IMG/VR virus record: IMGVR_UViG_3300010299_000086
Coordinates: 1 to 20,116 of that record
Origin: a virus
Direction: 5' to 3' (one strand)
Length of the DNA stretch: 20,116 bases
Made by a program: the position numbers and the translations under genes. The notes under the pieces are model-generated. The model was not told the origin of the DNA. It saw only the letters and a program-made list of their open reading frames with translations, and did no database searches. Shown here in pieces: positions 1,790-20,116 of this stretch (within the stretch, counting starts at the first letter, position 1; every line of letters begins with the position of its first letter).

Positions 1790-3397
1790 TCATTTATTAG
1801 GTGATGTTTTCATGGTTGTTGAGTTAACATTTCTTGCGGTAACAACACAACAGGAACAACCAACAATTCTAGGATTTAACAATGTAAAGAAATCCAAAGA
1901 TTCCAATATACAAACGTTTGGTGTTGTTTGATTTAATACAACATTTAAAGTACCCGTTATTACATCGCTATTTGATATAAATACTGACTCATAAGTTTTA
2001 GTTGTTGCCGTGGTATATTTTATAGATTGAGAAACCCCACAAAGATTGTTAACCGGTGTTGTTGTATTTGTTACTTGTTCAATTGGAATTATCCCTAAAT
2101 CAATACCATTTTTTTTCAATTGTATTACAGAATTAATGGTTGCCGAATTTAATATAGTCGTATTAAAACTATTGTTTTGAGATATATTGAAAGTTATTAT
2201 AGTCCCGCTTGGTAAGGTGCTAACCAAATTATTTTGATTATCCCTAACTTCTAAAGTAAAATTTAATGTTTTATTTTTTGAATTTGTTGTTAAAATACTA
2301 CTATTAAAACTTAAAAAATAGTTTGTTTGCGCGGGGGCTGGTGACACTATGACACCTTGAGTAATAGTTGTTGGTGTGCTATCTTGAACCCATACACTAT
2401 AAGTTCCTGAATTTAAATTACCAAATAACGGACTACTTTGTGTTGTTAATCCGTTATTAATTGAATACAATATGGGTGGAACTCCGTTAATTACATCTAT
2501 AAAAATAGAACCCGTATTTGGAGTTTTTTCACAAATTGGTCTTTGTATTGTTATATTCTTAAATGACATACCTCTATTTGTACAGGGTCCATTAGTAACT
2601 AAAGCGTTTGCTGGTGGTCCTTGCACTGTATAATTACCTAATGGCGTTGTTGAATTAGTACTAAATATAAAATTATCGTCTATCATTACTTGCCATGAAG
2701 GTTGGGGTGTTAAGATCCATTGTAATGTATATGTAGATGACGACCAAGTGGGTTTACCGTTAACGTAATTAGGTGTAGGGTTAAATGTGTAATTTGTAGT
2801 TATAAAGTTTTTAGTTATAAACAAACACAATACTTGTGTATTAACAGGTAATGGTGTTGGTGTTTGGGTTGGGGTTGGTGTTGGGGTTGGTGTTGGTATC
2901 GGTAATGAACATACGGTAGTTGCAGTAAAATCAGGTCCTGTTAACTGCCAACTATAATCTGTAACTATAACCCCATAATTTAGTCCAGGGGTTGCGTTAA
3001 TTGTCGGACCATCGAAACCATTATCCCACAATATCTTATATGGTGGCGTACCTCCTGATATTCCTATAGTTATAGTTGAGTTAATAATGTTAGGTAAACA
3101 TTCAATAGTAAGAGGACTAATCGTCACAACATTACATTCGTTAGATCCTGTTATTTTAACACACGGGTATGTTTGATTACAACTTTGACAATCGGAAAAT
3201 TCAGTAACTGTCACCGAACTTTGTAGGTATGTTGGGGAACCTGGGTTTACCTCACCTGAATTAATAATTTCAGTACACCCTGAAAAAATTTCAGGTATTT
3301 CAACATAATAAAAATCCCCAGTTAATGGAGAGAGAAAATCGGATATAATAAATGTTGTATTACTATCACAACATGATTTAAAATAGAAGGTTGCCAT
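1790..3397 (-). CDS. Mosaic adhesin-like virion protein (Cys module, SprB-like repeats, Pro-Thr linker), 535 aa
   Basis: No single family is recognised; the protein is a mosaic. Residues 5-79 form a Cys module (CC at 9-10, GC at 40-41, then C-x2-C-x5-C at 70-79) that recurs in the neighbouring 245-aa protein. Residues 95-165 resemble an SprB-type repeat (GGTPPYKILWDNG, then YGVIVTD). Residues 168-184 are a low-complexity Pro-Thr linker. Residues 187-287 are an unassigned beta-type domain (YVNGKPTW, SWQVMIDD). Residues 288-355 are a second SprB-like repeat (INGVPPILYSINNG, then LNSGTYSVWVQD). The C-terminal 180 residues are Thr/Asn-rich and end with a Cys cluster (GCSCC at 513-517). There is no signal peptide or membrane helix, as expected for a virion protein assembled in the cytoplasm. 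Its role as a host-surface adhesin, fibre or decoration protein is inferred from composition and neighbours. The ATG at 3397 follows a 15-base A/T-only leader. Confidence 0.8.
   Translation of the reverse strand: MATFYFKSCCDSNTTFIISDFLSPLTGDFYYVEIPEIFSGCTEIINSGEVNPGSPTYLQSSVTVTEFSDCQSCNQTYPCVKITGSNECNVVTISPLTIECLPNIINSTITIGISGGTPPYKILWDNGFDGPTINATPGLNYGVIVTDYSWQLTGPDFTATTVCSLPIPTPTPTPTPTQTPTPLPVNTQVLCLFITKNFITTNYTFNPTPNYVNGKPTWSSSTYTLQWILTPQPSWQVMIDDNFIFSTNSTTPLGNYTVQGPPANALVTNGPCTNRGMSFKNITIQRPICEKTPNTGSIFIDVINGVPPILYSINNGLTTQSSPLFGNLNSGTYSVWVQDSTPTTITQGVIVSPAPAQTNYFLSFNSSILTTNSKNKTLNFTLEVRDNQNNLVSTLPSGTIITFNISQNNSFNTTILNSATINSVIQLKKNGIDLGIIPIEQVTNTTTPVNNLCGVSQSIKYTTATTKTYESVFISNSDVITGTLNVVLNQTTPNVCILESLDFFTLLNPRIVGCSCCVVTARNVNSTTMKTSPNK
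2846..2896 (-). repeat. Pro-Thr dipeptide linker encoded by a short tandem repeat
   Basis: Residues 168-184 of the 535-aa protein read PTPTPTPTPTQTPTPLP. The + strand shows irregular tandem ggtgtt/ggggtt units. Such linkers usually separate folded extracellular domains; here the linker lies between the first SprB-like repeat and the next beta-type domain. Variable CCA/CCC codons interrupt the nucleotide repeat, which would lower but not abolish slippage. Confidence 0.85.
3161..3385 (-). other. Cys module, copy 1 (N-terminus of the 535-aa protein)
   Basis: Residues 5-79 carry the pattern F-x-S-CC, an aromatic-rich stretch, YVEIPxxxSGCT, then C-x2-C-x5-C (C70, C73, C79). The same order, and the same final spacing, is present at the C-terminus of the adjacent 245-aa protein. 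The paired and CxxC cysteines suggest disulfides or a bound metal; the sequence alone does not say which. Confidence 0.6.
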
Positions 3398-3412: not shown

Positions 3413-4150
3413 TTAACAAGTATTTATTTCTGTGCAATCATCACAACTTTTCATAATCGGAAACGGAAAGACACTTGATGTATCAGTATTCGTTGTGTCA
3501 TTCCAATCGTCTTCAACATACGTGTGAATTGGGGTTTCGTAATTGCTAATAACGGTTGTACATCCCGTATAACCCGTACCCGAACCTGAAACTGATGGGG
3601 GAATATTAACATACCATGAAATATTTGGAGTGAATCCAGTTTGAAACTCTTCGTTAAATTTAAACGTATAATCATAACAACAAGCACTAAAATAAGTCGG
3701 AGCATTTTCATCAAAACATTCTTGACAATTATCATAAGTATAACTTATTGTTAAAACCTCAGAAGATTCGTTTGTAAATTGGTAACCTGAATATATCCAA
3801 CATTGTTCATTTTCTTCAAATTTAACCACCTTACCAATGTTCAATGATGGATCATTTTCAATATATTTACATATTGTTTCATCACTACAATTACAAAACG
3901 TATGAAATACATTACCAAAATATGAACATACAACATTTTGGTTTTTTTCGCAACCTGTTGTTAACTGTACAATTTTCACATTTAGTGCGGGGGTTCCACT
4001 GAATTGTGATGGTATTTGGTACACAAGAATCGGAGGTATAGTACCTACTACAGTGTCAACCAATACACAATTTATATTTAAAAAATCACAAATATAAATT
4101 TCATAAGGTGGTGTAAGACCCGTAACTTGTGATATGATGATATTTTCCAT
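3413..4150 (-). CDS. Cys-rich modular virion protein, 245 aa
   Basis: I do not recognise a named family. The protein has 16 Cys in 245 residues and appears to be three consecutive modules. Module A is residues 6-75 (TGLTPPYEIYICD, a second C at 28, then TTGC at 64-67 and VVC at 73-75). Module B is about 84-145 (FCNC, GKVVKFEENEQCWIY, ending in CQEC at 142-145). Module C is 152-245 (FSACC, YVNIPPSVSG, GCTTVI, then C-x2-C-x5-C at the very C-terminus). Module C matches the N-terminus of the 535-aa protein encoded next. There is no signal peptide or membrane segment. The gene sits 3 bases after the 746-aa adhesin-like gene and 15 before the 535-aa gene, so the three are probably co-translated. 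A role as a small fibre, decoration or adhesin subunit is inferred only. Confidence 0.75.
   Translation of the reverse strand: MENIIISQVTGLTPPYEIYICDFLNINCVLVDTVVGTIPPILVYQIPSQFSGTPALNVKIVQLTTGCEKNQNVVCSYFGNVFHTFCNCSDETICKYIENDPSLNIGKVVKFEENEQCWIYSGYQFTNESSEVLTISYTYDNCQECFDENAPTYFSACCYDYTFKFNEEFQTGFTPNISWYVNIPPSVSGSGTGYTGCTTVISNYETPIHTYVEDDWNDTTNTDTSSVFPFPIMKSCDDCTEINTC
3416..3694 (-). other. Cys module, copy 2 (C-terminus of the 245-aa protein)
   Basis: Residues 153-245: YFSACC, YVNIPP, GCTTVI and a final C-x2-C-x5-C (C236, C239, C245). Order and terminal spacing equal those of copy 1 in the 535-aa protein; the central segment is about eight residues longer here. Confidence 0.6.
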
Positions 4151-4153
4151 CGT

Positions 4154-6394
4154 TTAACAACTAACACAGTTTATGTCATATACTATTTTTAATTGTACTA
4201 TTAAATTTTGATTCGCCAGTGGTATAGTTTCATCTTCACAAGAAGTGTTAACTGTTAGTATATTATTATCAATATCGATTATCACGTCGCCAACACCCGT
4301 TGCACCACTAATTAATCCAGTTATGGTATCACCCCAAAGTTCGACGGTCGGAGTTTCATTAAGTGTCGTTGCGGTATAGAATGATGAACTATAACCTGTT
4401 CCACCAACACTAGTGACCGCAGAAAAGATTGCATTATTTAATAAACAATCCGTACATCCTGACGTTAAATCTAAATAACCTTCAACTAACATTGTGTTAA
4501 AAGATCTTTCAGTTAAATTATTTGAACTGACCAAATTAGAATCACAAATATTGTAAATTACTGTTGTTGATAAATTAAAAGTACCCTCTAAGGTTATGCT
4601 ATTAGACAGGGTACACCCACTAGCATCGGTAACTATTAATGAATACGTACCAGCTGATAAATTACTTACAGTAGTTCCAGTTTGTCCATTCACATTGGAT
4701 GACCAAACTAACGTAAATGGAGGTGTTCCTTCAAAAATATTTGCATATATTTGACCGTTACTTCCGTTTGTAGAATTTGTTGGTATTAATATAAAATTAA
4801 CATTTTGGCTAGAGTTTACTGTAACATAGTCGACTTCCTCACATCCTGACTGATCCTCAACAGTGACCGTATAAACCCCACTAGATAGATTATTAAAAGT
4901 ATACGAACTTGTTCCTGTATTTGTTGCGGTTTGATTACCAGTTCCATCACTTTTTATTATAGAATAAGTATATAAACCTGTACCGCCAGTTGTGACTTCA
5001 ACATAGATGGTACCGTTATCCTCACCACAAGTAGTACCTGTTACATAGGTATCTGCGGTAAAGTTTGATGTGGAATCAACAGTGTATAAACCGGAAAACA
5101 CACAATTCCCATCAGTTATTGTTAATAAATAATCACCTGATGTTAATTGACTAAAATTTGATGAAGTTGACGATTCTTTGGAGGATATTGAACCACTTTG
5201 TCCTGAAAGACTATATGTATATTTTTTATTTCTATCACCAATTAATAAAATGTTTATCTGCCCATTTGCGTTGCCACATGTTGCATTTTTAATATCAACT
5301 GAAGCAACATTAAAACTGTCAGGTTGGTTTAATTGTACGGTTACCTTACCACTACAAAGAGCCGCATCAGTAATTATAATTTCGTAACTACCACCAGGTA
5401 ATCCACTAAAAGTGTAAGTTTGATTATAACTAATATCGATAAACGACCTTGATGGTATATAATATCTATATGGGGCAACTCCATTAATTACTGTTATCGT
5501 TATTGATCCATTCTCGTCAAAACACGTTGGCGGGGTTGGATTAACATCAGCAATTGTTACAGGAATAGTTTCGGTTATTACGTCAGTTTTAGTTAAGACG
5601 CACCCCTGAGAATCCGTTATTGTCACAGAATACGCACCCGAGGTAAGTCCTGTTATTGAACTACCTGTTAATGGTTGTCCGCTTTGAGGTAAAAATTGAG
5701 GATTCGTTATTGATTCCCACAAATACACATAAGGGGGAATACCCGTTAGCCCGGTTACAAATAATTTTCCAACACCACTATTTTCATTCCCACAATCAGC
5801 ATCATTAACCTTATAAAACCCATAATCCAGTGTTTGTGAATTTTCCACAATAACATTCTCACTAAACCCTGTACATCCACCACCATTATTAGCAACAACA
5901 TAATAAACTCCACTTGGTAAATCTGTGAATACAAAAAATGTTGTTTCGGTAATACCTGTTTGATATGGGATACCACCCTGATATAAAACAATTGTGGCAG
6001 TCCCATTTATATTTTCAGTGGTGGCGGTAATTATACCATTATTCAACCCGCAAGTCGTTGATACCACACCTTCAATATTAACACATGAACTACCTGATGA
6101 AACAGTAATATTAATCGTCTCTCGATTATTTTGAGTTGGATCACCTGGCGATCCGCACGAGTCATTTACGGTGAAAACATAAGTACCTGCAGATAATCCT
6201 AAATATTCTCTAGGTCCGTTAAATATATTAGTTTCAGTAGTAGGTCCACCATATGGAGGCCACGGATTTGGTTCAAACCAAGTGATACTCATTGGTTCTG
6301 ATGTGGATGACAAATACAATGTGAATCCACCTGAACCGTTATTTTCACAATCACCTGTAACTGAAAACTGACTAAAATTATATGAACAAGACAT
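4154..6394 (-). CDS. Phage adhesin-like protein with seven SprB-like repeats, 746 aa
   Basis: About 590 residues are built from seven successive repeats of 70-87 residues. Each has the plan C-G-x-x-N-G-x-I, then a G-x-x-P-Y-x-Y-x-W type strand, then L-x-S-G-x-Y-x-V-x-V-x-D-x-x-G-C. This is the plan of the SprB repeat family known from gliding-motility adhesins and other secreted proteins of Bacteroidota. Cys pairs fall at 16/80, 115/174, 201/265, 291/347, 373/431 and 456/518; the seventh repeat keeps only C594. Residues 608-746 form a different C-terminal domain, with GCTDC at 646-650 and a CVSC end. There is no signal peptide or T9SS-type C-terminal domain that I can identify, consistent with a particle component rather than a secreted protein. 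The gene lies 4 bases after the 992-aa baseplate-type gene. Binding of host surface structures is inferred. Confidence 0.85.
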   Translation of the reverse strand: MSCSYNFSQFSVTGDCENNGSGGFTLYLSSTSEPMSITWFEPNPWPPYGGPTTETNIFNGPREYLGLSAGTYVFTVNDSCGSPGDPTQNNRETINITVSSGSSCVNIEGVVSTTCGLNNGIITATTENINGTATIVLYQGGIPYQTGITETTFFVFTDLPSGVYYVVANNGGGCTGFSENVIVENSQTLDYGFYKVNDADCGNENSGVGKLFVTGLTGIPPYVYLWESITNPQFLPQSGQPLTGSSITGLTSGAYSVTITDSQGCVLTKTDVITETIPVTIADVNPTPPTCFDENGSITITVINGVAPYRYYIPSRSFIDISYNQTYTFSGLPGGSYEIIITDAALCSGKVTVQLNQPDSFNVASVDIKNATCGNANGQINILLIGDRNKKYTYSLSGQSGSISSKESSTSSNFSQLTSGDYLLTITDGNCVFSGLYTVDSTSNFTADTYVTGTTCGEDNGTIYVEVTTGGTGLYTYSIIKSDGTGNQTATNTGTSSYTFNNLSSGVYTVTVEDQSGCEEVDYVTVNSSQNVNFILIPTNSTNGSNGQIYANIFEGTPPFTLVWSSNVNGQTGTTVSNLSAGTYSLIVTDASGCTLSNSITLEGTFNLSTTVIYNICDSNLVSSNNLTERSFNTMLVEGYLDLTSGCTDCLLNNAIFSAVTSVGGTGYSSSFYTATTLNETPTVELWGDTITGLISGATGVGDVIIDIDNNILTVNTSCEDETIPLANQNLIVQLKIVYDINCVSC
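4589..6361 (-). repeat. Seven tandem SprB-like protein repeats
   Basis: Residues about 12-602 of the 746-aa protein. Approximate repeat limits in residues: 12-98, 104-183, 190-275, 283-356, 362-440, 449-528 and 530-602. Recurrent elements are CGxxNG at the start and SGxYxVxVxDxxGC near the end. The copies are diverged from one another at the DNA level, so this is an old protein repeat and not a recent DNA duplication. Confidence 0.8.
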
Positions 6395-6398
6395 TTAT

Positions 6399-9377
6399 TT
6401 AAAAACAATTAATTGTAAAATTTATTCCTACGTTAATTTTAAACTCAGAATCTAAATTTAAATTATCACAAGTTATAGTTGATATTGTAACTGTATCTCC
6501 AGATATTGTGTAGTCTAACCCATATAAAATTAAACTATCTAACTGTGATTCTAACGCTGATAACCACTGCGTTGATGTCGGATAACTTATTTCAGGAATT
6601 GATAAACCTATCCCATTGAAGAATGGGTAGTTTATTATGGTGTTACCTGAAAGAGTCAAATTAACATACCAAGAACTATTTATCGTGTTAACGTCGCAGT
6701 TAGGATTATTTGTGTAACTTGATACAACCTCATTTAAAACTCCTCCAAATGAATTACCTATATTAGGGTTACTAGTCCACGGATATATGTCACATGTTGT
6801 ACTAATCTCAGGGCAATCATATAATAATACCGGTCCAGATATCGTACAAGGATTACAAGGTACTGGAACAATTTGACAACCCCTCTGTCTTCTCCACACG
6901 AACTTCTGTCTATGGAAAATTGAATTTTCAAATCTAACACCTGTATTCCAAATTGTAGTCGCCGGAACCATTTGTTCTACCAAACGAATCCAATAGTCTC
7001 CAAGTCCTTGGACGTAATCAATCATTTTTTGGTAAGTAAATAAACTATCGGGTATATCTTCAAAGTTTACTGATTTCAAGTACTTCCAATAAACGGACTC
7101 TAAGGTTGGGTATCCCCCAGTTTTCCCATTTGTAATGTACTGTCTATCCCTAACATTTATCATATTTTGCCAAAATGTTTGAGCAAACTCAAAAAACGTT
7201 TTGTCGGATGGGTTGGGATCTATTAATGTTTTATCTAAAATAGTTTCATTTAGATATGAAGGACAATAACAATTCCCGCTTATAGTATACCCTGTGGACG
7301 GTATTGGATAATTATAGTTGTTTGATAGGAACCATACATCGTAAGTTATACCTTGTGCCGGATTTAAATATAAATCAATATTTTTTACATTTAATATTAA
7401 CCGTTCATCATCAACAAAATAAAATGAATTATTACCATCCGTATTTCTTCTTAATCCAATTTCATTATCTAACCAACTTTTTTTATTATCTATTGTTTTA
7501 TTTAATGAAAACCCTAGATTAGTATATGGAAAATCTCTAAATCTATTTAAATATTTTTGACCATAAGTGAAATTTTCTAAAACAGTTTGATAATTAGGAT
7601 TTTGACCTGTGAATGTACTTGAAGTAGCATCAAATAACTCATTGGATCTATGTTGTGCCGTTTGTTCAAACCAACCCGAACCAATTTGGAAGTAGAAACT
7701 GTCAGTATTTTCAGGGGATCTCGGATAACCTTCATCATCAACCGGAAAATCTTCTCTTCCTAAAGAAACGTCTTCAATTGATGTTTGTGTTGTAAACCCT
7801 GTAAACACCCTTCCTAATATTTTAAAGGTATTTGTTGGTTCCAATACGGGTGTTTCTTGCGAATATGTCCCCCCTGTTATTTGTGCAAACTCAGAGTTAA
7901 ATTGGTTCATGTTTATTTTTTGATCCGCAATATAGATATATTCATTAAAATCAACTAAAGCTTCTGGAGCACCTATTAATCTTAATAGATTTTCTATTGA
8001 ACTTCTAGTCCCTTTTGATTTAAAAAGATACGCCGAATTTAAAATTAAGTTTCGGTAAAATTGATAACTAATTTCATCAGGTGTTGATGACACTGGTACT
8101 CCCTGAAACTGACTTGGTGTGTTATTATCAAAAATAGAATTTAAGAAATTCTCATTTGTGATAGGTGAGATATTTTCGGACCATCCTAATGTTTGAGATA
8201 GATTTTTTAAGAGTTGTGATGGTATATCATTTTTAATATTATAGTTAACCGAATTCATGTACGCCAATGAATCGGCGAATACCTTGACCTGATCAAAACT
8301 TCTACCATAAATCTCCAATAGTTTAGTAATTTTTTGATCATTTGTGTCAAAATCTTTAAAGGCACCAGTCGTTAAAAATCTAACGATCAATTTGGTTTTG
8401 AATTCGTCCAAATTTTCTGCAAATAGATTCAGTTTTTCTAAGTAATTAGTGAATCTAGACGTTATTATATCCAAATTCCATTGACCATAAGTCGGCCATG
8501 TAATAGATTCTGTTGTCACATAAGTTTTTCCATCATCAGACTCTTTAAAAACAGTAAATTTTGCTGTATATATTGGACTTGTTTTTCTGTTTAATAAAAA
8601 CTTTTCAACCTCATCAAAACTTTCGTTAAATACCATTTCAGTGGTCATGGAGTTTAATCGTATTAATAGATTGTCATAGACAATTGTTTTACCTGAAAAA
8701 GGATTTCCTTTAACATTCAACTTTAGAGTTCCTGTTAATAAAGAAGTGGTGGGGATTAAAAATGTAACATCATATGATGAACCACTATAGTCAAGTACGT
8801 ATTTGTTATAATTAACGGTCATATCACGTAATGGAGACACTTCAATCTCACTCAACTGAATATTTCTAGTTGAATTATCGGTAAAATCAATTGAGAATGG
8901 GTTTTGAATTCTACTAACGTCAATCTCCATATATGTTTCATCGTTTGACGAATTGTAAGTAATATTTGTTGCTGTTGATCCTGTCGTATAATTTGGACCT
9001 ACAAAGGGTATTTCAATTCCAGCCGGAAAATAGTTAATTATTTTGGTTATTGAGACTGATAGTCGTTTAACCAGTGAACCGTACTGAGAAAACGAAGTTA
9101 CATTACTTAAATCAAAATTTGGATATACTTTAAAATTTTTTTCAATAATCGCTTTTGACTCTTCAATGTTTTTTACACCCATAGAGTCTAAGGTTATAGG
9201 ATCCGAAAAAGTACCTATTACAAATTCCCTATCAGATTTTTCAGTTATTGATGTTGTAAACTCAAAATTACCTTGTGTTAGACCACCCCCATCAACAATC
9301 TGAAACCCTACCAGATTGTCTGAGAATGTGTTACCAGCAGTTGCCTGTTGTGGTGGACAAGTGTATTTTTTAGCCAT
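6399..9377 (-). CDS. Large baseplate protein with a tail protein I / gp7-like segment, 992 aa
   Basis: Residues about 345-480 look like the tail protein I / T4 gp7 C-terminal fold of phage baseplates: a helical stretch (KITKLLEIYGRSFDQVKVFADSL split by short turns), then FYRNLILNSAYLFKSKGTRSS and IENLLRLIGAPEALVDFNEY. The K-G-T followed by an amphipathic helix and a short beta strand is the recognisable element. Residues 1-340 are beta-type. Residues 480-830 contain repeated Trp/Tyr/Asn-rich stretches and end in EQMVPATTIWNTG. A Cys knot follows (GC at 833-834, CNPC at 841-844). The last 150 residues form a separate domain ending in FTINCF. The length is far above P2 gpI and close to T4 gp7 (about 1030 aa). 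The start overlaps the stop of the 302-aa gene as TAATG, implying translational coupling. The wedge role is inferred from this segment and the nearby gp6-like gene. Confidence 0.8.
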   Translation of the reverse strand: MAKKYTCPPQQATAGNTFSDNLVGFQIVDGGGLTQGNFEFTTSITEKSDREFVIGTFSDPITLDSMGVKNIEESKAIIEKNFKVYPNFDLSNVTSFSQYGSLVKRLSVSITKIINYFPAGIEIPFVGPNYTTGSTATNITYNSSNDETYMEIDVSRIQNPFSIDFTDNSTRNIQLSEIEVSPLRDMTVNYNKYVLDYSGSSYDVTFLIPTTSLLTGTLKLNVKGNPFSGKTIVYDNLLIRLNSMTTEMVFNESFDEVEKFLLNRKTSPIYTAKFTVFKESDDGKTYVTTESITWPTYGQWNLDIITSRFTNYLEKLNLFAENLDEFKTKLIVRFLTTGAFKDFDTNDQKITKLLEIYGRSFDQVKVFADSLAYMNSVNYNIKNDIPSQLLKNLSQTLGWSENISPITNENFLNSIFDNNTPSQFQGVPVSSTPDEISYQFYRNLILNSAYLFKSKGTRSSIENLLRLIGAPEALVDFNEYIYIADQKINMNQFNSEFAQITGGTYSQETPVLEPTNTFKILGRVFTGFTTQTSIEDVSLGREDFPVDDEGYPRSPENTDSFYFQIGSGWFEQTAQHRSNELFDATSSTFTGQNPNYQTVLENFTYGQKYLNRFRDFPYTNLGFSLNKTIDNKKSWLDNEIGLRRNTDGNNSFYFVDDERLILNVKNIDLYLNPAQGITYDVWFLSNNYNYPIPSTGYTISGNCYCPSYLNETILDKTLIDPNPSDKTFFEFAQTFWQNMINVRDRQYITNGKTGGYPTLESVYWKYLKSVNFEDIPDSLFTYQKMIDYVQGLGDYWIRLVEQMVPATTIWNTGVRFENSIFHRQKFVWRRQRGCQIVPVPCNPCTISGPVLLYDCPEISTTCDIYPWTSNPNIGNSFGGVLNEVVSSYTNNPNCDVNTINSSWYVNLTLSGNTIINYPFFNGIGLSIPEISYPTSTQWLSALESQLDSLILYGLDYTISGDTVTISTITCDNLNLDSEFKINVGINFTINCF

Positions 9378-17000: not shown

Positions 17001-19072
17001 TTAACCCCGTTTAAATTTGGATCGGTAGTGTCAGAATAAGCCCCGAAAAATTTACCCTTAAAACTCATTAAATTAACTCTTTCTGCTAGCGGTAGTTTCT
17101 GAGTAAAATAAAGTCTTAAATCGGTGTCTTGTGAATCCACGTACACTCTAGGAGTTCTGAATGCATAACTGGTACCTAATAAATTACTTTCATACGTACC
17201 AACAGTTTGCTGAACAATTTGTGAGGTAATCTCATCTTGAGCTCCAGGATCTAAAAATAAATCTTGATTAATAACATCAGCTAAGACTGAATTATTAACA
17301 AATGGATTCGCGTTTTGTTGGTCAAATGTACTCGGTATTGGACTGGCGGTAGCTTTACAACTACAAAGTTCACAATCAGGGAATGTGAACATAGGTATAT
17401 TAACATTTGAAAAATTTTCTTGAATCTCTCTTAATCGATTGTTATTACCGGGTAATACATCGATTAAAATTTGCAGTAGTTGGCAAATAACGTGATAGAT
17501 TACCACAGTCACTTTTAATAAAATTGAGATAAAAGAAGTTGTTAATACAAATAATATGAATAATAAATCAAATTTAAATTGGCCGTCATTTGCTGGAAAT
17601 TTGTTATTGGTACTTTCACACTCTTCGTCAGTTATATTCTTAATACCTAAATAACGTCTTAACGCATTTCCTTTTCTATATCTTGTTATAAGTTGAGATA
17701 TGGTATAGACTTTGTTATAAGACATGTCATAAAAAGTGTCATTACAGTCAATTGCATCTCGTATCATTTGTTCTCCTTGAGCGGTTATTCCTGAATACCC
17801 ATAATCGTTCCAATCTAAACTAAACGCATATGAGGATTTAAGTAACTGATAATTTATATTGTTCACTATAATCGGATCTACATCACTACTATTCCAACCG
17901 TGTTCTTTTATATTAGGTATTAAAAAATTAGCTCTTTTGATGGGTGCAGATAAATCAGGTGATTGATTCCATTTAACTTTGAATCGGTATTTAGCTCTTG
18001 TAGGTATACCTTTTCTTTCATCGTTAGAAAATACCTGTTCTCCGAATTCATTCGTCACAATGTAGTCCATGTTCATGGGTAGATCAACTAACCAAGTACC
18101 GTTTTCATCTATTACATTACCATTATTTTCTAATTCGTATTCTTCTAATATCGGTTTACCTGTATTATCTTGTTGTATCGTTTGTCTTATTGCCAATATT
18201 TGGCCAGGTCCCGACACTAAGGAACACATTTGTCCATTTTTTAATGGTGGTTTACATCTTTTTTTAACCGCAGATTTGTCTGTGTCTGAAAATATGGAAC
18301 CCATAAATATTGAGGTAGGTTTGATCTCAATATTAGCCTCAGAAGTTAAATCAAAATCAGTTCTATTTATCGATACTTGACATAATTCCTCATCACCCCA
18401 TAATGGAGCAACCTCAACCTCTTTATTGATTCTGATAATTTGAGGTAGCGTTGTTATATTTTCAGATGACTTAAATGTCGTACCATTAACTTGATTTTCG
18501 GTTGCAATACCTAATCTAATTAAATCTTGAGGTGATTGTGAAAAAGGTCCGATGTCAGATAAATCAACATTCATGATCAATGTTTGAGACCCGACAGGTA
18601 CTCCAAATATCATATAGTCACCACTATCGTTTGTCGTTACCGTAAATTTGTAGTACTTGTCATATATTTCAATAGCGGTTGGGTTTGTTAAAACATCTTC
18701 TAAATCAGGAAAAGAACCTGTAGCTGAATGACCAGGATATGATGGTTTATATGGTAATAAATTATATTTATAACCATCCTCATTGACATCTTCGAATGTT
18801 TTATAGGGGTAAATCGAACTTATTATCGGATTATTCTCATCTTCTTGAGTTATTGGTATAAAAATAGATAATTTAGCATTTGGTATTCCAAAACCATCAT
18901 TAACAGATACTCTTCCAGCAACAACACCATAATCGGCACATTGTCTTACATATAACTCTGTTTGGGATAATTTTAATGAAAGTATTTCTAAAAACTCAAA
19001 ATCTTGTTCTAAGTTCACATTAACCTGTCTATCGACCCCAATTTGAGTCCTAATTCTCATTGATTTTGACAT
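14087..19072 (-). CDS. Giant virion structural protein with an internal hydrophobic hairpin, 1661 aa
   Basis: This is the largest gene in the window, just downstream of the gp6-like wedge gene. Residues about 45-175 resemble a carboxypeptidase-regulatory / Cna-B-like beta sandwich: GVVAGRVSVNDGFGIPNAK and LSIFIPI at one end, TNDSGDYMIFGVPVGSQTL at the other, with a Tyr/Pro-rich insertion of roughly 80 residues between. Residues 502-541 are strongly hydrophobic (DLLFILFVLTTSFISILLK, then VTVVIYHVICQLLQILI), long enough for two membrane-type helices. A CELCSC motif (567-572) follows. The remaining 1080 residues are Asn/Ser/Tyr-rich, with a Trp-containing block near 1310 (NNWINGTLYMFPFKNSRF). 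No enzyme signature is visible. The ATG at 19072 is chosen because it is the first one after the 73-base gap. A baseplate or tail-periphery role is inferred from position and size. Confidence 0.85.
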   Translation of the reverse strand: MSKSMRIRTQIGVDRQVNVNLEQDFEFLEILSLKLSQTELYVRQCADYGVVAGRVSVNDGFGIPNAKLSIFIPITQEDENNPIISSIYPYKTFEDVNEDGYKYNLLPYKPSYPGHSATGSFPDLEDVLTNPTAIEIYDKYYKFTVTTNDSGDYMIFGVPVGSQTLIMNVDLSDIGPFSQSPQDLIRLGIATENQVNGTTFKSSENITTLPQIIRINKEVEVAPLWGDEELCQVSINRTDFDLTSEANIEIKPTSIFMGSIFSDTDKSAVKKRCKPPLKNGQMCSLVSGPGQILAIRQTIQQDNTGKPILEEYELENNGNVIDENGTWLVDLPMNMDYIVTNEFGEQVFSNDERKGIPTRAKYRFKVKWNQSPDLSAPIKRANFLIPNIKEHGWNSSDVDPIIVNNINYQLLKSSYAFSLDWNDYGYSGITAQGEQMIRDAIDCNDTFYDMSYNKVYTISQLITRYRKGNALRRYLGIKNITDEECESTNNKFPANDGQFKFDLLFILFVLTTSFISILLKVTVVIYHVICQLLQILIDVLPGNNNRLREIQENFSNVNIPMFTFPDCELCSCKATASPIPSTFDQQNANPFVNNSVLADVINQDLFLDPGAQDEITSQIVQQTVGTYESNLLGTSYAFRTPRVYVDSQDTDLRLYFTQKLPLAERVNLMSFKGKFFGAYSDTTDPNLNGVNLFNTATVGNIDVGGGTNQIKVNFNYELNPDSTYHYDNTLVLLTENQYDSGTLLSFQNVFNTSDVNLSSTTENEFGNFAITGTPINLQEVTVSSTDPITGHRVLTTYNVVQNENDDDKFLKFPTDVEYFQVLTSITYSQYVNIIDGLDGCSPGNNGYQKSFRNRVFDAFTDVYRFTIIPSPSSSFFTSLSAWQIFQEKNNTYITIMVRGVDPHSTRQKVKYGIGRLFCRDNHWDVSVNGDFKLNIPLQPNDGLDFGDESVGSSQSDAKQNAQRCVKHDNIQTNNSTDDSYSKGRIYFPSYHFSPGNQWTSYFNDKVSYYSSLDEINTSFSPSTPGPFTQLFNTVGSYTIVNNVSRGLRISISNRYGKDNDNSPLVEYGANYIVGESVEGGSVIGMRTNSGGDIEQSLESIYFSPMYVSTTSINMTNSQKIVMRTDRMPTSEFVQTFGNNSYQGMNNGQFLILEISENGNSVSPDPGLNTPSFSTASPEEEVTGQTATLLNSFSCESLVPIQCYQNSNDTITILPEPICQYYPGTNERFFIQGSCYSLVHPPYLGNNLRKDLQLVTEWLSRININFGACREVFSHTFVNNWINGTLYMFPFKNSRFFTGPNDNPPNQPYNKFCNETVFLHPDTFNYYYRSSPYKDSTNEFIGREGYTNPLNNEQIGNKKDLMFPTTIMDLGPRDELQKFLSQSGNWDGYIVNKLESTTFGDTSDILNLFILSRFANTSFGALFQQGEGVNILRFFSREKRMVDSDFAQMIATNSQFGIAPYDPEDYPEPQDLLTYNSPLYFPSGVQNVGDITFGIFYTGNSQIRDYISPNITVYNSDGDVDNVCSYSFIPLNSQEVPFYLWDIKQNGSNQNIFGTQENEWDLGGNNAFKYTYQSINRLEPSSKTFQPDAGINQIKYHKGWIYNVDNGSINPETNEFDYKPEPGIPNKYLMGAPFYFYFGLTKGGSAFDRFAAKWINTEELTE
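17357..17569 (-). other. Hydrophobic two-helix segment followed by a CxxCxC motif
   Basis: Residues 502-541 of the 1661-aa protein are almost entirely Leu/Ile/Val/Phe with a single Lys (520) and His (527), followed by a Pro-Gly turn, a polar helix (NNNRLREIQENF) and C567-x2-C570-x-C572. The length fits two short transmembrane-type helices. Comparable stretches are absent from all other proteins of the window. Confidence 0.65.
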
Positions 19073-19145: not shown

Positions 19146-20116
19146 TTAACTAAAGTTGACCGTTTTTAGATTTTTAACCCTAACACTAATATCTTGACCA
19201 GGTAATCTTACTTGGTAAATTTGAGTCGGTTCCGCAAAGATAGTGTCATCAATTAGTTCTATTTGTCTGGTCGTTGAGTCAATATACCTTTGAGAGGTTT
19301 GTGATGACGAGTACTGTCCTCCAACTAAATTAAATACATCAATTTTAGTAATTGATAAAACTCCGTTTAAATTTTGTATTTGTCTTTTTATTTCCGAAAC
19401 ATAAACATTCTCACCCATTTCTCGATTACTAGGTGAGAAGTAATTGGATATTATGTCAACAATTTGAGTAATAATAGTCCCTTGATTTTGACTTGAATCT
19501 AAAACTACATAGATGTCAAATTTTAAATCTAAAACTTGAGCACTTTCAACTACCACATAATCATTAATCATTCGATAATTTGAAAGATAATTTGCAATAT
19601 TGCTTTTTAAGGTGTTAGAAATTACGTTAGTTAATTTACCTGTTGAGTCAAAACTTAAACATTGTACTTTAATTTTATTATCTTGTTCAGTTATCGCAAC
19701 TTTAGCCGGTGCACCGAATTGTGATGGCATATTACGTATTAATGATTCATAATCATTAATGGTAACAGCTCTTTTTTGTGCCGCAAAATTATACGTTACA
19801 TAATTTCTTACTTCCTCAATAGATGGAAGATTAGCTCCCCCAATTGCCGCGGTGGTATTCGTACAACTTAATGAATTAATAACTACCGTATTTTGCGTTT
19901 GTGAGGGTCCGTTAACTTGAAAATTTATAGTCCCTAACTGATTAATTACATTAACACCTAAATTAGATGATATTCCTCCTCCAATTCTGTATTGAATGAA
20001 AAGAGTTGAGTTTGACTTTAACGTACTACCTAATGCAAAATTGTTAGAATATTTTTGTAGATTTAAGGGATTTCCTGTAGCGGCAAATTCTCTAAGTTGT
20101 TCATCCGCAGATTGAC
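19146..20116 (-). CDS. Baseplate wedge protein, gp6 / baseplate J-like, 5' end cut by the window
   Basis: The frame is open from the window edge at 20116 to a TAA at 19146, giving 322 complete codons; the Met at 19730 is internal, since in-frame residues continue upstream of it. The signature is the KRAVTINDYESLIRNMP block (about 19731-19775), the R-A-V-T-x-x-D-Y motif of the gp6 / baseplate J family. It is followed by a strand-helix-strand pattern typical of that fold: SNIANYLSNYRMINDYVVVE, then LDLKFDIYVVLD, a helix with NYFSPSNREMGENVYVSEI, and LNGVLSITKIDVF. Upstream of it is FIQYRIGGGISSNLGVNVI, a beta region seen in the body of gp6-type proteins. gp6 dimers form the ring of wedge arms around the baseplate hub in contractile tails. 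This is the anchor for calling the locus myoviral. The N-terminal part is outside the window. Confidence 0.85.
   Translation of the reverse strand, partial: QSADEQLREFAATGNPLNLQKYSNNFALGSTLKSNSTLFIQYRIGGGISSNLGVNVINQLGTINFQVNGPSQTQNTVVINSLSCTNTTAAIGGANLPSIEEVRNYVTYNFAAQKRAVTINDYESLIRNMPSQFGAPAKVAITEQDNKIKVQCLSFDSTGKLTNVISNTLKSNIANYLSNYRMINDYVVVESAQVLDLKFDIYVVLDSSQNQGTIITQIVDIISNYFSPSNREMGENVYVSEIKRQIQNLNGVLSITKIDVFNLVGGQYSSSQTSQRYIDSTTRQIELIDDTIFAEPTQIYQVRLPGQDISVRVKNLKTVNFS

Follow-up and report, generated by a model that had tools for sequence, protein, structure and literature searches.

The closest described proteins by repeat family are the SprB-type adhesins of gliding bacteria, of which SprB of Flavobacterium johnsoniae comprises 6497 aa (PMC9870892). 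The 746-aa phage protein described here shares with them the repeat family (Pfam PF13573), the predicted Ig-like beta-sandwich and the cysteines located towards either end of most repeats. There are also clear differences. The phage protein contains exactly seven position-specific repeats, whereas bacterial open reading frames contain 1-48 (some of them cut by contig ends). It carries neither a signal peptide nor a C-terminal T9SS signal and is encoded in a phage tail operon. Moreover, it possesses an additional C-terminal domain that is common to a phage tail protein.

In regard to structure, the best match (E 1.2e-19) is the grappling-hook protein GhpA of Aureispira (PDB 9flp, 9fly, 9flw), which is likewise a chain of Ig-like domains and is matched in fragments of its neck, base and shaft. 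However, GhpA is a huge bacterial surface protein with about 15% identity to the phage protein, and the whole-chain TM-scores are low (0.15-0.22), so that the match holds domain by domain.

That phage particles bear Ig-like domains is well established. Decoration, neck whisker and tail proteins of tailed phages carry such folds, and weak sequence matches were obtained to PDB entries 5lxk, 9occ and 8zvi; these concern one domain of a short chain, in contrast to the seven fixed SprB-type domains found here. A protein of an uncultured Caudovirales phage (A0A6J5LD72, BFVD/UniProt; 714 aa, 35% identity) matches over the whole length and is, judged by its sequence, evidently a member of the same family already listed under the automatic name 'SprB repeat'. 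A search of the literature for phage SprB repeats yielded no publication that deals with such a protein. Within the literature searched, the invariant number of seven, the colinear evolution of the repeats and the domain common to the neighbouring tail protein are new. The automatic label on phage proteins should not be equated with a captured gliding adhesin.

The 642-kb megaphage LR756502, likewise a very large phage genome, encodes a 1675-aa open reading frame with 13-14 SprB repeats (L088 20001-21437 and onward). We rejected it as a close relative, since it shows no match to the 992-aa neighbour of the gene studied here or to Baseplate_J. As in addition all 13 of its repeats in the repeat tree are closest to bacterial ones, LR756502 probably acquired them independently.

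The window, i.e. the whole stretch of 20,116 nt analysed here, carries all of its genes on the minus strand, forming one tail operon (Table 1). In the direction of transcription, the Baseplate_J-family protein is followed by proteins of 1661, 591, 273, 395, 302, 992, 746, 245, 535 and at least 591 aa. Ten of the window proteins had no match in PHROGs.

Table 1. Features of the tail operon in the window and the evidence for each
Feature	Position	Strand	Evidence
746-aa seven-domain SprB-like tail-region protein, whole gene	4154..6394	-	open reading frame; PF13573 above cut-off; adjoins 992-aa gene in 139/141 loci
Repeat 1 (aa 7-101)	6092..6376	-	phage-family profile; own clade in repeat tree
Repeat 2 (aa 104-187)	5834..6085	-	phage-family profile; repeat tree
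Repeat 3 (aa 188-278)	5561..5833	-	phage-family and bacterial-repeat profiles; repeat tree
Repeat 4 (aa 279-359), best Pfam SprB match	5318..5560	-	Pfam; phage-family profile; repeat tree
Repeat 5 (aa 360-443)	5066..5317	-	phage-family and bacterial-repeat profiles; repeat tree
Repeat 6 (aa 444-530)	4805..5065	-	phage-family and bacterial-repeat profiles; repeat tree
Repeat 7 (aa 531-606)	4577..4804	-	phage-family and bacterial-repeat profiles; repeat tree
C-terminal alpha-beta-beta-alpha-beta-beta-beta domain (aa 607-746)	4157..4576	-	homologous to end of 992-aa protein: reciprocal profiles, hhalign E 2.4e-7, same helix/strand order
C-terminal domain of 992-aa protein (aa 877-992), paralogous to SprB-like C-terminal domain	6402..6749	-	family profiles; model
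992-aa conserved tail protein, just upstream	6399..9377	-	mean pairwise identity 58.5%
Baseplate_J-family protein, C-terminal part, runs off window; tail-operon anchor	19146..20114	-	PF04865 1.2e-11; TIGR02243 1.7e-9, below its cut-off
245-aa Cys-rich protein, next gene; other genes instead in distant relatives	3413..4150	-	open reading frame list; locus comparison
535-aa protein: Cys-rich module, Thr-Pro linker, two more SprB-like domains	1790..3397	-	PF13573 28.0 bits; bacterial-repeat profile E 2.4e-15

The initial annotation had described a gene of seven SprB-like repeats in this region. The open reading frame is real, with its ATG at 6394, and the repeats were confirmed at the positions given there, on the minus strand; what had been missed is the non-repeat domain of about 140 aa that follows them. 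The proposed family also holds. The 746-aa protein matches PF13573 with 35.4 bits (E 8e-9; cut-off 28), and two stretches pass the cut-off alone. In a search of genomes the best score was 38.1 bits, and 14 control genomes gave no match. The PF13573 cut-off was exceeded in 43 of 46 records. An independent profile, built from bacterial repeats only (about 1300 repeats from 80 loci, with record titles all naming Bacteroidota), detects all seven domains in register with 194 bits (E 1.4e-59 at Z=1000), and the best of 2000 shuffled versions reached 6.3 bits. Domains 1 and 2, taken singly, score weakly with the bacteria-only profile (10 and 9 bits), and 45 and 46 bits with a phage-family profile. 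The motif at the repeat start varies: domain 1 has CENNGSG, and in domain 7 (STNGSNG) a serine replaces the first cysteine.

Virus loci were gathered by means of the 992-aa neighbour, that is, without selecting for SprB. The 746-aa gene lies directly downstream of the 992-aa gene in the direction of transcription, and a SprB-like gene is the next one in 139 of 141 loci, while the remaining two contigs stop inside the 992-aa gene. In 103 of these 139 loci the stop and start codons of the two genes overlap by one base. All 121 full-length homologues, which represent 81 distinct sequences and are not 121 independent observations, as many stem from related metagenomes, possess exactly seven repeats at lengths from 708 to 1222 aa. 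A lineage-specific repeat expansion behind these lengths was rejected, because the longer proteins carry extra terminal segments and keep the seven repeats. Six of the 81 distinct homologues have such a segment at the N-terminus and nine at the C-terminus, including one protein with both; those inspected consist of Cys-rich modules and Thr-Pro linkers. Since variable extensions occur at both ends, it is uncertain which end of the protein faces outward.

The copy number of repeat proteins usually shifts quickly. In contrast, seven repeats are kept in every homologue found, even between proteins less than 40% identical, versus 1 to 48 in bacteria, which offers a testable case of virion structure constraining the number of repeats.

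The history of the repeats was followed in a tree of 320 repeats, comprising 147 from 21 divergent phages (seven positions each), 160 bacterial ones and 13 repeats of megaphage LR756502. At every position the 21 members form a clade to the exclusion of all other repeats (supports 0.84-0.996). Repeats at the same position share a mean identity of 49% between phages, versus 28% among the repeats inside one phage protein. For none of the 147 phage repeats does the closest match come from the same protein, whereas for 439 of 1294 bacterial repeats it does; this contrast is only qualitative because the two sets differ in size. The position-specific clades and the constant number of seven therefore indicate that the array predates the sampled phages, without gain, loss or homogenisation of repeats. 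It is ancestral and frozen, and was in place before any of the sampled members of the phage family diverged. Pooled dN/dS, calculated from 23 pairs of which several have high dS, lies at 0.063-0.100 in the individual repeats and at 0.074 in the C-terminal domain, which means uniform purifying selection in every domain and no diversifying domain.

The initial annotation had suggested a host-derived adhesin scaffold. These results speak against a recently acquired host adhesin. The comparison with host SprB repeats that the initial annotation proposed shows every phage position as a separate clade across the family, and we therefore rejected a recent capture from the host. The tree has no overall root between phage and bacterial repeats, and its best split puts all 147 phage repeats together with 25 others. 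An origin of the array from a cell long ago is possible.

Repeat 7 is followed by the C-terminal domain. A family profile of this domain matches the end of the 992-aa protein in 51 members of the family, and a profile of the latter domain in turn matches the SprB-like protein in 45; in a profile-profile comparison (hhalign) the two domains match with 93.4% and E 2.4e-7. For the window's own pair the relationship is weak (cross-matches with E 0.016 and 0.094) and BLASTP between these two domains finds nothing, so that the homology is visible only with family profiles. Separate AlphaFold models of the two domains display the same helix-strand-strand-helix-strand-strand-strand order; most pLDDT values lie at 70-90 over residues 631-741 of the one and 877-988 of the other. 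Elsewhere in the fetched loci this domain is absent, and in a 326-kb relative contig (G046) only the SprB-like and the 992-aa proteins match it convincingly. That neighbouring tail genes share a domain argues most strongly for the SprB-like protein being part of the particle, and it suggests a docking site. Together with the constant gene place, it supports a place in the tail module and, with it, the SprB-like virion gene of the initial annotation.

The 992-aa gene can be called baseplate-type because of its place in an operon with the Baseplate_J gene. Its product had no match in Pfam or PHROG, and no relative of it was detected in 396 Bacteroidota genomes or in bacterial genome contigs. Outside residues 102-260 and 877-992 the model of this protein is poor, and by fold it matched no PDB entry below E 0.001. 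A weak 184-residue match in Microcystis phage Mel-JY01 is the sole outside lead on its identity.

On balance we lean towards the SprB-like protein being a conserved arm of fixed length that is associated with the tail or baseplate, docked by its C-terminal domain, and supports fibres. The seven Ig-like domains, constant in number, would make up a fixed-length rod; the full-length model shows seven beta-sandwich domains (mean pLDDT 81.6), but its pTM is low (0.35), so the relative placement of the domains, and hence the stiffness, is not predicted by it. The C-terminal domain, given its homology, might dock the arm where the 992-aa protein sits, either by pairing with the corresponding domain or by replacing it. 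The genes following the SprB-like gene vary by subgroup, encoding Cys-rich proteins in the window's group and collagen-like fibres of more than 1600 aa in others, and the arm may hold, space or support these collagen-like or Cys-rich, Thr-Pro-linked fibre proteins. A conserved role of its own for each domain position could explain that repeats are not gained, lost or homogenised. In a bolder version, which is tentative and rather doubtful, the seven SprB/Ig domains are not interchangeable, a duplicated baseplate-protein domain docks their chain, and the arm acts as a ruler that sets the reach of the fibres. If it were true, a repeat that is freely expandable in bacterial adhesins would have become a fixed-length structural part in virions.

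A conserved protein of fixed length could also be a binding fibre. As an accessory adhesin, its Ig-like domains would bind glycans of the host surface, of the SprB-type filaments of the host, or of the surrounding matrix. This is the view of the initial annotation, which considered the glycans bound by the host adhesin, the host surface or mucus-like polymers as targets. The domain family is that of Bacteroidota surface adhesins, the closest solved structures are the GhpA fragments of Aureispira, and Ig-like domains of phages may bind carbohydrates weakly, as suggested by Fraser et al. (2006) in the wording quoted in PMC9230969. However, beyond the domain family nothing in our data speaks for this role. 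The fixed domain number and the position-specific conservation are unlike bacterial adhesins, the uniform purifying selection is no less compatible with a structural arm, and the more variable genes nearby are better candidates for receptor binding; we consider an adhesin unlikely. A position elsewhere on the tail, as a neck whisker, a sheath decoration or a tail-tip scaffold instead of a fibre-holding arm, appears less probable still. The sole solved proteins matched by sequence are indeed two Ig-like phage decoration proteins and one phage neck-whisker protein, but these matches are weak and cover one domain, and both the gene order after the baseplate-module genes and the C-terminal domain common to the adjacent tail protein point to another place. 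Finally, repeats of the SprB family typically occur elsewhere in surface proteins that are secreted, and the protein could be secreted or displayed by infected cells instead of being built into the particle. TIGR04183 (Por_Secre_tail) lies just above its cut-off (27.3 versus 23), but the match is internal, within repeat 5 (aa 380-430), and we rejected the protein as T9SS cargo. There is no T9SS signal at its end, which is formed by the different, phage-shared domain. A simple hydrophobicity screen of the first 35 aa for a Sec signal peptide gave low values for the 746-aa protein (0.44) and 80 of 81 homologues. Since the gene is also coupled to the tail operon, we regard this explanation as highly improbable. 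A location of the arm in the virion is suggested by its gene place and by the domain common to the tail protein.

The 326-kb relative encodes a portal (PF07230, 4.2e-77) and a terminase (PF03237, 1.8e-14), both of T4 type, as well as 12 tRNAs, and another relative measures 317 kb. On this evidence the family belongs to the T4-related very large phages (>200 kb); the 20-kb window itself is too short for such an assignment. The SprB-like gene marks a widespread, uncultured group of these phages, whose tail genes lack PHROG families. No Shine-Dalgarno signal was detected in G046 (4.4% versus 2.9% in shuffled sequence), and Bacteroidota-type promoter motifs are in excess (96 versus about 56 expected). 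Bacteroidota are likely to be the hosts, as judged from these genome signals.

Several further observations concern the neighbouring genes. Close to the tail module, the 326-kb relative carries genes for a sugar epimerase, a DegT aminotransferase and a glycosyltransferase (L231 566-11329, L232 1683-3125). It also contains a second SprB-bearing, Thr-Pro-linked gene beside a homologue of the window's last gene (L245 13175-17877). This pair is distant from the seven-repeat gene in the 326-kb relative and lies beside it in the window's group. Very long collagen-like fibre proteins of more than 2136 and more than 1616 aa are encoded shortly downstream of the SprB-like gene in other subgroups (L066 16563-22970, L029 18114-22961). 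The 245-aa and the 535-aa protein, neither of which has a Pfam match except SprB, each contain a Cys-rich module (CC ... GC ... C..C....PC) of about 76 aa, located on the minus strand at window 3161-3388 and 3416-3697. In the fetched loci this module occurs in 37 copies, often beside Thr-Pro linkers, and also in some SprB-like homologues. The 1661-aa protein contains a strongly hydrophobic stretch resembling a membrane helix at aa 501-545 (window 17438-17572, minus strand). Such a stretch, which is odd for a tail protein, lies near aa 480-560 in the relatives inspected (from 81 homologues), and it is possibly membrane-active during infection.
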